From Clostridiaceae bacterium (GTDB lineage: Bacteria > Bacillota > Clostridia > Oscillospirales > Acutalibacteraceae): a DNA stretch of 64,000 bases. Shown here one piece after another: positions 15,651 through 33,195 of this stretch. How positions within the stretch are numbered: position 1 is the stretch's first letter; every line of letters begins with the position of its first letter. The position numbers were made by a program, and so were the translations under genes. The stretch spans positions 1 through 64,000 of the forward strand of contig JAEEWM010000013.1 of the NCBI GenBank assembly GCA_016287385.1. The letters run 5' to 3'. The notes under the pieces are model-generated. The model did no database searches and was not told where the DNA came from. It worked only from the letters and a program-made list of their open reading frames with translations.

Positions 15651-15960
15651 AATAATCCTCCGTATGTGTCTATATTGTATAGTCGCCACAACCGATATAC
15701 CAAGTCATGTGCTTTACAATAATAATTATATATTATGAATATGTAAATTGCAACGGTTTTTTTATGAAATAACAGCCTTTTTCGGTTAAATTACAAAAAC
15801 GAAATGCAACCCGCACAAAAAATATTATATATATTTATTAAGTTTGCCCGATACGGTATTAAAGAAGCACGCACGCGGGCTTTGCGACCGTTCACCGAAA
15901 GGTCGCAATTTTGCTGAGCAAAACCGCCCTGTTCAAATCTCTCCTCTGCTTTACAAAATA

Positions 15961-15992
15961 TTAAAAGCACCCGAAAAGGGGTGCTTTTAATA
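15961..15992. terminator. Rho-independent terminator-like hairpin
   Basis: TTAAAAGCACCC-GAAAA-GGGGTGCTTTTAA adjacent to tRNA-Ser 3' end. Confidence 0.8.
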
Positions 15993-15996
15993 TTGG

Positions 15997-16083
15997 CGGA
16001 GTAGGAGAGATTTGAACTCTCGCGCCGGTTGCCCGACCTACTCCCTTAGCAGGGGAGCCTCGTCACCACTTGAGTACTACTCC
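15997..16083 (-). tRNA. tRNA-Ser (GCT)
   Basis: GGAGTAG...CTACTCC acceptor, loop CTGCTAA, long variable arm, T-loop TTCAAAT; CCA not encoded. Confidence 0.92.
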
Positions 16084-31761: not shown

Positions 31762-32022
31762 TTATTGGGCTGATTCTGTTAGCAACCATACTGCCAGATC
31801 GAAACCGAATTTGAACGCCGCCGTTTCGGAGACGGAGTTCATTTCATTTGCTGCTGCGTAGTATTTCTCGAATAGTTTGGCTTGTTCAGGGTTAAGAGTT
31901 GCTTCGAGTTTTTCACGGTTGCTTCCTACAAGGCGAAGCAAGTTCTTGTATTCCTTATTGCCTTCAACGAACTGTTCGACCGGACGGATATTGCCGTACC
32001 AAAGGTTTTCAAGAGCCGTCAT
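31762..32022 (-). CDS. DUF6809-like mobile-element protein
   Basis: MTALENLWYGNIRPVEQFVEGNKEYKNLLRLVGSNREKLEATLNPEQAKLFEKY; overlaps TnpV stop. Confidence 0.7.
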   Translation of the reverse strand: MTALENLWYGNIRPVEQFVEGNKEYKNLLRLVGSNREKLEATLNPEQAKLFEKYYAAANEMNSVSETAAFKFGFDLAVWLLTESAQ

Positions 32023-32399
32023 GCGAACACCACCTCGCTTTTCACGATCTCTTCGGCGCGGCCCCTGATGGAATTCATACGGCACACCCATTCCAACTGG
32101 TCGGCAGCTTTGAGCTGTTCGGTTACGCCTTCGGCTTGCTTCATTTGATCAACAAGCTGAGCAAACATATCCTCCGCCTGACGGTCAATATCTTCAATAT
32201 GCTCTTTCAATTTGCCAGAAAGCATAAGCCCAGAATATGTAACTCTCTTATGGTTACGCAGATAATCGTGATACATCATCCCGAATCTGCCGACCTTTGG
32301 TGCCTCCGGTGCGGCAAGGCAGGGATAATAGTAATCGCCCACCAATTCATATTTCAGCCCGGTTTTTTCGTCAATAATATACTTTTCTGATTCTTTCAT
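32019..32399 (-). CDS. TnpV-family transposon-encoded protein
   Basis: GRFGMMYHDYLRNHKRVTYSGLMLSGKLKEHIEDIDRQAEDMFAQLVDQMKQAEGVTEQLKAADQLEWVCRMNSIRGRAEEIV; start after GGAGG. Confidence 0.8.
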   Translation of the reverse strand: MKESEKYIIDEKTGLKYELVGDYYYPCLAAPEAPKVGRFGMMYHDYLRNHKRVTYSGLMLSGKLKEHIEDIDRQAEDMFAQLVDQMKQAEGVTEQLKAADQLEWVCRMNSIRGRAEEIVKSEVVFA

Positions 32400-32533
32400 A
32401 ATCTGAAACCTCCAAAATTTCTTTGTTTTTTTTGTTTCAGACAAGCCGAATAGTTGTTTCAGTCGGTTTTCAGAATGTGTATCTCTGCCGGATTTCATAA
32501 TAAAATTCACTTGCGTTATGAACACTCCGACCA

Positions 32534-32574
32534 GAAAAGACTCATCTTTTGTCTACCAAAAGATGAGTCTTTTC
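32534..32574. repeat. 18-bp perfect hairpin, loop TCTAC (copy A)
   Basis: GAAAAGACTCATCTTTTG-TCTAC-CAAAAGATGAGTCTTTTC. Confidence 0.95.
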
Positions 32575-32578
32575 AACT

Positions 32579-32754
32579 AAATCCGTCCTTGCGGACGGGA
32601 TAAATCGCCCTAACGGGCGGTGAAATCACTTCGTGGTGAAATCCGCACTTCGTGCGGGTGAAGGGACGGATTTAATTTCACCGAAGTCGCAGACTTCGAT
32701 TTCACCTGAGGGGCGTAGTCCGAAGATTTCACCGCGGCATAGCCGCGAGTTCAC
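32579..32754. repeat. Multi-hairpin array A (spacer word GTGAAAT, switching to ATTTCAC)
   Basis: CCGTCCTTGCGGACGG, CGCCCTAACGGGCG, CACTTCGTG, CCGCACTTCGTGCGG, GAAGTCGCAGACTTC, CGCGGCATAGCCGCG separated by GTGAAAT then ATTTCAC. Confidence 0.9.
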
Positions 32755-32761
32755 TTTTTTA

Positions 32762-32790
32762 TTGACATTTTCCGCAGAAGTGGGTATATT
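32762..32790 (+). promoter_or_regulatory. Sigma-A promoter
   Basis: TTGACA-17 nt-TATATT. Confidence 0.75.
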
Positions 32791-32796
32791 ATGTTT

Positions 32797-32873
32797 AGAA
32801 GACATATTACCAAGGGGCTTTGACCCCACTACGGCTATTAGTTTAGCTGACGGTAGTTTGTCTTCTTTTATTT
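32797..32873 (+). ncRNA. Candidate small structured RNA
   Basis: Begins ~7 nt after the -10; closed by AGAAGACA/TGTCTTCT, contains GGGG/CCCC and CTAC/GTAG stems; followed by TTTATTTT. Confidence 0.45.
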
Positions 32874-32976
32874 TGCCAATATTATATATTGTTGCTACTA
32901 TTGTATCGTTGCAAAACGTGTATCATTTTGGCTGACTTACTACGGTTTACGTATCATTATGGCGGACTTATACACC

Positions 32977-33013
32977 AAAAACGCATCTTTTGTCTACCAA
33001 AAGATGCGTTTTT
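32977..33013. repeat. 16-bp perfect hairpin, loop TCTAC (copy B)
   Basis: AAAAACGCATCTTTTG-TCTAC-CAAAAGATGCGTTTTT. Confidence 0.95.
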
Positions 33014-33017
33014 TGAA

Positions 33018-33195
33018 CGATGTGTTCCATCTTCGCGGAACGTGATGCACACTTCGTGCGTGATGTATCCTTTGGACGTGATGTTTGCCTTCGGCAAGTG
33101 AAAAGGAACGCATCACATCACTGATTGCGTAGCAATCTACATCATTTCGGCAAAGCCGATACATCATCAGGCGCAACGCGCCGGCATCATTGATT
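33018..33195. repeat. Multi-hairpin array B (spacer word GTGATG(T), switching to (A)CATCA(T/C))
   Basis: Mini-hairpins GTTCC..GGAAC, TTGCCTTCGGCAA, GATTGCGTAGCAATC, TCGGCAAAGCCGA, GCGCAACGCGC with complementary spacer words in the two halves. Confidence 0.88.

Follow-up and report, generated by a model that had tools for sequence, protein, structure and literature searches.

Word–hairpin arrays as front parts of probable small mobile elements with a 23S_rRNA_IVP gene in rumen and gut Clostridia

Two arrays of mini-hairpins, A and B, lie on the plus strand of the window (the whole stretch of 64,000 nucleotides that was analyzed), and in each of them the short words that separate the hairpins turn into their reverse complements at mid-array. 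What kind of object is built in this way? A first-pass annotation of the DNA offered three guesses: a structured RNA, a recombination or transfer site that folds as single-stranded DNA, or a self-propagating palindromic element. The last of these is the one that finds support, from scattered copies and from empty sites in relatives. On this reading, the arrays make up the front of small mobile elements of ~0.6 kb (about 560–660 bp when complete). The earlier reading had neither the leader hairpin nor the link to tRNA genes, and it missed the IVP gene and the match to Gut-1; all of these are described below.

Layout of Arrays A and B

Each array has a short word four times between mini-hairpins, followed by its reverse complement four times, and each is headed by a perfect leader hairpin. 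The leader, or junction, hairpin of element A (32534..32574, plus strand) has a stem of 18 bp with the inner part CATCTTTTGTCTACCAAAAGATG, and CCGACCA stands just before it. Array A proper, made up of words, reversed words and the mini-hairpins between them, occupies 32575..32754 (plus strand). Its words W, at 32599-32605, 32620-32626, 32636-32642 and 32658-32663, read (GA)TAAAT, GTGAAAT, GTGAAAT and GTGAAG; its reversed words W', at 32675-32681, 32699-32705, 32726-32732 and 32748-32754, read ATTTCAC three times and then AGTTCAC. The first-half pairing reported earlier was confirmed: the arm X, AAATCCGTCC (32579-32588), is complementary to X', GGACGGATTT (32664-32673).

Element B repeats this plan on the same strand, with a leader hairpin at 32977..33014 that has the same inner part as that of A and an array at 33019..33190 whose arms are X 33019-33028 and X' 33105-33114. 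Here, W is GTGATG at 33042-33047, 33060-33065 and 33078-33083, with GTGAAA as the fourth word (33098-33103). The reversed words are ACATCAC (33115-33121), ACATCAT twice (33139-33145 and 33161-33167) and GCATCAT (33184-33190). The order of parts in both arrays is as originally described, but the feature begins earlier, at the leader hairpins. The two arrays had been said to share a design without sharing primary sequence. Since near-identical perfect hairpins head both arrays (88% identity between the leaders), primary sequence is common to A and B at that point.

The word scheme was matched by none of 100 shuffles for array A and by 2 of 100 for array B (scored as L012+1504 and L012+1945, respectively). 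In RNA folding, array A with its leader gave z = -7.3 and array B gave z = -4.6, and in both cases, 0 of 200 dinucleotide shuffles were as stable. Behind array A, at 32762..32790 (plus strand), lies a promoter-like site with TTGACA (32762-32767) and TATATT (32785-32790) at a spacing of 17 bp; its score of 12.3 was reached by none of 200 shuffles. A convincing promoter was looked for behind array B, and none was found.

Copies and Word Inversion

The leader hairpin and array recur together in the window's own genome, which has over ten copies, and in many genomes of rumen and gut Clostridia; within the order, the hairpin pattern turns up in 36 of 295 genomes. The tRNA flanks in the window's genome show arrays directly behind the CCA ends, with the words GTGAAAT, GTGATGT, TGATATA and GTGAAGT. 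Exact matches to the hairpin in IMG/VR are confined to two contigs, so phage carriage is no main route. Exact-hairpin matches in Colwellia, Pelagibacter, Mycoplasmopsis and other unrelated taxa look like chance; the sole one to survive the array filter, L109, was dropped from the arrays, with 6 of 100 shuffles reaching its score.

Among arrays whose words vary widely, 54 have at least two words and at least two reversed words in the correct order, and for nearly all of these, none of 100 shuffles reaches the word-scheme score. The mid-array flip noted in the first-pass annotation is confirmed in A, in B and in these other arrays. The same annotation had tied its reading to the words staying complementary in other copies, and this was examined by taking the two words of each of 38 arrays independently from fixed halves. 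Complementarity held: the second-half word is the reverse complement of the first-half word in 34 of the 38 and has the same orientation in none, against a mean of 9.9 and a maximum of 18 when the partners were shuffled. Since the words differ between copies, this sustained complementarity amounts to covariation. The mini-hairpin loops behave in a similar fashion, with the C-TTC-G class outnumbering the C-GAA-G class by 70 to 13 in first halves and standing at 25 to 38 in second halves (Fisher p = 3e-8). The second half is an inverted unit of the same kind as the first. Mismatches within the mini-hairpin stems, counted as a test of strand, gave a ratio of G-T to A-C of 18:10, which is not decisive for the strand.

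The Complete Element and Its IVP Gene

A complete element runs from the junction hairpin, which adjoins the 3' end of a host gene, through the array, often followed by a promoter touching the last word, to a single PF05635 ORF. The ORF behind the array belongs to the 23S_rRNA_IVP family (PF05635; E 6e-19 to 5e-29). Each of the three IVP places in the window's genome has an array immediately ahead of it, and IVP genes are carried by 57 of 70 genomes of this genus. Among 30 IVP loci of the genus that were picked regardless of arrays, 13 have an array, 3 have a short-word version of it and about 11 have a layout that we term class II; among 20 loci of close relatives, the corresponding numbers are 12, 6 and 2, the classes being assigned by eye in both sets. 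The words track the IVP tree, with 13 changes compared to a possible minimum of 11 and a shuffled mean of 29. When copies at different sites are compared, the likeness runs from the hairpin and stops at about the IVP stop codon, which, judged from these comparisons, is the end of the complete element.

Of 27 IVP copies, 22 have a sigma-70 promoter whose -35 box touches the last reversed word or lies close to it; no more than 6 of 100 shuffles yield one equally good. The promoter-like site of array A occupies the same place as the promoter ahead of the IVP gene in these IVP-bearing copies. Copies located right behind a host stop codon are without this promoter, and in them, the array and IVP gene are probably co-transcribed with the host gene. 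The IVP gene is absent from both copies in the window, and we infer that A and B are either IVP-less remnants or copies moved in trans.

The predicted structure of the IVP (pLDDT 93) matches the solved IVP/S23 proteins 2RLD and 2GSC, with five chains each, and gives weaker fold matches to Avd (4DWL, TM 0.77) and to a ribonucleoprotein of diversity-generating retroelements (DGR RNP, 8UB7). Its best viral structure matches are Avd-like proteins. As modeled, the IVP is an Avd-like four-helix bundle. The 23S_rRNA_IVP family has been described as of no known function, and the Xanthomonas member was reported to be a homopentamer (PMC4990558).

Class II is a related but simpler layout in which the IVP gene is located between tandem short words on one side, such as (AATTCGG)n, and their reverse complements on the other. 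In the class II loci L149, L151, L154, L155, L160, L161, L165, L166, L167 and L175, the IVP gene lies between protein genes, for example of the atpG-atpD or gyrB-gyrA type. Cargo-like genes were also seen directly behind the IVP gene or the array in unrelated copies (L096, L098, L170, L171; L070, L133; L172, L186); among them are genes resembling those for methyltransferases and nucleotidyltransferases, as well as an antisense coiled protein module.

Insertion Sites and Empty Sites

Of the 52 arrays that could be placed, 31 are directly behind an intact tRNA gene, with 12 isotypes represented, and most of the rest are behind a repeated tRNA 3' end. The window copies A and B adjoin an IS-like end and a TnpV gene and not an intact tRNA gene. 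Further hosts are ilvE, guaA, a GGGtGRT-type gene and what we take to be 5S rRNA (L150) and RNase P RNA (L214), the last two recognized from their sequence.

Protein genes provide occupied and empty versions of the same site. In genome G019, an array, an IVP gene and about 0.9 kb more follow ilvE; the site is empty in G004 and G033, which are 94–98% identical to G019 on both sides, while G009 has a different array with an IVP gene, and G011 and G349 have remnants. The GGGtGRT-type gene of G019 is followed by an insertion of 562 bp, comprising the array and IVP gene and measured from host stop codon to IVP stop codon. It sits ahead of the native terminator, and the site is empty in G004 and G011. 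Behind guaA, there are different insertions in G009, G344 and G012, and several other genomes are empty; only the left junction can be read at this gene because the right flanks are not collinear. The empty sites in close relatives at ilvE and at the GGGtGRT-type gene show that the arrays there arrived by insertion.

The GGGtGRT-type gene has a peculiarity of its own. In many genomes, its last 60–97 bp are duplicated 1–15 kb downstream, as in an integrase attachment site (e.g., G004:C39:82047-82143 and G011:C1:90339-90435).

Junction Arms

At four of the five protein-gene insertions checked, the element opens with ~9–14 nt that are reverse-complementary to the host gene's own end. The arm and gene-end pairs at guaA are GGAACAATCGAATT/AATTTGATTGTTCC in G009, CATAGAATTTGAAT/ATTCAAATTCTATG in G344 and AGAATACGAAT/ATTCGTATTCT in G012, with 13, 14 and 11 matched bases and exact matches of 9, 14 and 11. 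These exact matches to the arm's own host exceed those to a swapped host (4–8), and empty guaA sites, which lack the arm, give 5–9 with one mismatch allowed. The arm of the GGGtGRT insertion is shorter, at 9. In the automatic test at ilvE, the native terminator stem and the new arm both scored 10; given that equality, the ilvE arm rests on the reading of the alignment, where a longer arm, AATTTTTTTAAGTTTATAA against TTATAAACTATAAAAAATT, was seen by eye. An inverted copy specific to the host is difficult to account for unless the host strand was copied during insertion, and arms of this kind suggest that fold-back copying takes place at that step.

The junction arm is clear at protein-gene insertions only. 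The leader hairpin of the tRNA copies has a conserved core, TTTTGTCTACC, and because of this core, a copied arm, a native terminator and the element itself are inseparable there. The leader may be any of the three.

Proposed Mechanism

We put a probability of about 0.78 on the reading that the arrays belong at the front of small, selfish mobile elements that settle at the 3' ends of transcription units, with the following mechanism included. In a single-stranded form, either ssDNA or RNA, the words would pair with the reversed words to give a rod with hairpins on both sides, and rings of IVP would bind this rod. A synthesis step, with the host strand folding back and being copied, would attach the element to the 3' end of a transcription unit. 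The arm made in this way would then serve as a hairpin at the end of the host gene, keeping the insertion harmless, and solo copies without an IVP gene would be mobilized in trans. The element has no catalytic enzyme and no integrase, and its copies are known here from sequence comparison. It probably needs no reverse transcriptase. The word–hairpin ladder may work as RNA or as ssDNA; tRNA-linked copies are flanked by a terminator-like hairpin and the promoter, and the others are probably transcribed. Some copies may have come in as passengers, since integrase-type targets also include tRNA 3' ends and the end of the GGGtGRT gene.

It is more tentative, and somewhat short of an even chance, that there is a whole class of mobile elements without a recognizable recombinase, built from an Avd-like ring and a word–hairpin ladder and added harmlessly by fold-back at 3' ends, with the intervening sequences (IVSs) of 23S rRNA as its rRNA branch. 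A 23S rRNA IVS is likewise small and selfish, is strongly structured, and has PF05635 as its only ORF, at a host-tolerated stable-RNA site (PMC4990558). The ORF family and the life style are common to the complete copies here; the window copies A and B lack the ORF. The present element differs in having the ladder, often its own promoter, and a junction arm copied from the host. No insertion inside a 23S rRNA helix was found, the sites read following tRNA, 5S, RNase P RNA or protein genes, and because this defining site was tested and not found, we do not file the element as an IVS.

Known Families and Alternative Explanations

An Rfam family already takes in part of the feature, which corrects the first-pass annotation. 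This is Gut-1 (RF01706), a model of 77 positions that corresponds to the first part of GTGAAAT-type and some TGATATA-type arrays. It matches the first part of array A (32574..32647, plus strand) with 53.1 bits against a cut-off of 50, leaves the rest of that array outside and gives no match to array B. Counted by locus, 12 of 20 other array loci also reach the cut-off, and in the loci read, the Gut-1 match is a piece of a larger array, several with an IVP gene behind. Gut-1 was listed in 2010, from human gut samples only, as a probable free ncRNA (PMC2864571). Following that view, the array could be an independent small RNA with a defined fold that acts in trans and is transcribed from a promoter of its own or by tRNA read-through, with the RNA's need for the rod keeping the words complementary. 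The very stable predicted folds of A and B, the Rfam classification of the first half as an sRNA that matches array-bearing loci, and the probable co-transcription of arrays directly behind stop codons are all in keeping with this. However, the tRNA-linked arrays lie between a terminator-like hairpin and a downstream promoter, so their transcription would be poor; the copies are dispersed, and at orthologous sites some genomes have one and others do not, as for a mobile element; and words that change so freely preserve no fixed target or ligand site. We regard the small RNA as improbable. We differ from the Gut-1 description in taking its model as the leading half of something larger, a mobile element that also occurs with words beyond the model's reach, as in array B.

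The array might instead be a passenger, forming the ends of integrative elements that attach at the 3' ends of genes, with no movement of its own. The strong placement at tRNA 3' ends would be expected, as would the repeated tRNA 3' ends beside several copies and the duplications of the GGGtGRT gene end of up to 97 bp. On the other hand, neither the ilvE nor the GGGtGRT insertion has a duplicated gene end next to it, and the latter is only 562 bp long; the sequence common to copies extends only from the hairpin to the IVP stop; and an integrase is absent from the element. We regard this explanation as unlikely.

By analogy to diversity-generating retroelements, transposition could proceed through reverse transcription, with the IVP in the role that Avd has beside the DGR reverse transcriptase. 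The fold of the IVP matches Avd and the DGR RNP chains, PF05635 has been likened to Avd (PMC10053308), and fold-back copying at the junction would suit self-primed synthesis. The likeness to these retroelements is in the fold of the encoded protein. No RVT_1 protein was found in the window's own genome, which is 99.97% complete and has over ten copies, and neither template nor variable repeats were seen. Without RVT_1, the route of Avd with a reverse transcriptase is not available in that genome now, and we give it little credence.

Least likely is an array of REP/BIME type that a RAYT (Y1 tyrosine transposase) mobilizes, in which the word would play the role of the REP tetranucleotide and the link to the IVP would be secondary: the dispersed, intergenic, direct-then-inverted palindromic units do resemble a BIME, and the genome has one Y1-type ORF (25 bits), but that sole ORF is weak, is on another contig (C26) and is not near the arrays, no RAYT gene is found beside an array in this genome, the genes linked to arrays at 3' gene ends are IVP genes, and the words differ even within one genome with no fixed GTAG-like signal, whereas one RAYT recognizes one fixed signal.

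The exclusions made in the first-pass annotation, of CRISPR, of an ordinary terminator and of coding as an explanation, all stand. CRISPR arrays have identical direct repeats of about 23–50 nt and unique spacers, whereas the repeated words here are 6–7 nt and inverted at mid-array. An intrinsic terminator is one hairpin and then a T run; only the leader hairpin fits this description, the array being seven mini-hairpins with no T runs between them. The arrays could nonetheless pass for terminators, CRISPR-like repeats or sRNAs during annotation. In open-licence papers, searches for Gut-1, for IVP and for arrays that follow tRNA genes gave no earlier description of the whole element.

Reading the arrays as parts of selfish mobile elements joins an RNA family known since 2010 with no function, Gut-1, to the 23S_rRNA_IVP protein family in one element. 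The many natural copies, with words that change yet remain complementary, make it possible to test directly whether the IVP binds RNA or ssDNA. The host-derived junction arms leave an uncommon footprint, from which the copying step should be identifiable.

Neighboring Features

A TnpV gene (PF14198; E = 1.8e-41) lies at 32019..32525 on the minus strand, outside element A. TnpV adjoins the arrays at this locus alone, and no general link was seen. TnpV or an IS as the cause of the arrays was considered and rejected, TnpV being adjacent only here and an IS-like end preceding a minority of the copies. In the window, that IS-like end, with two TATCATTWTGGCKGACTT repeats, is at 32911..32965 (plus strand), before element B and outside it. 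A similar end with TATCATTWTGGCKGACTT repeats stands immediately, or all but immediately, ahead of the leader hairpin in L005, L007, L057 and L064, placed as if an IS had inserted between the tRNA end and the leader hairpin.

A second small element is located at 15750-15997 of the window (minus strand), behind tRNA-Ser (15997-16083). It is about 165–180 bp long, has no ORF and consists of a terminator hairpin, an inverted tRNA T arm, a conserved core (AAAGGGCGGTTTGC..GCAAAGCCCGTGGGCGTGTAGCC..) and a further copy of the tRNA 3' end. It occurs behind many tRNA genes, sometimes in tandem (L023, L025, L027, L032, L034, L036, L037, L039).

Finally, a long inverted repeat with an inner hairpin (e.g., AGAAGACATATTACC..GGTAGTTTGTCTTCT) is present at 32800-32866 of the window and recurs in L001 (reverse strand, about 1090–1210), in L145 (about 240–350), and behind a gene end in L266 and L283. 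The copies searched gave no Rfam match at the gathering cut-off. This repeat precedes small genes, several of them for lipoproteins.
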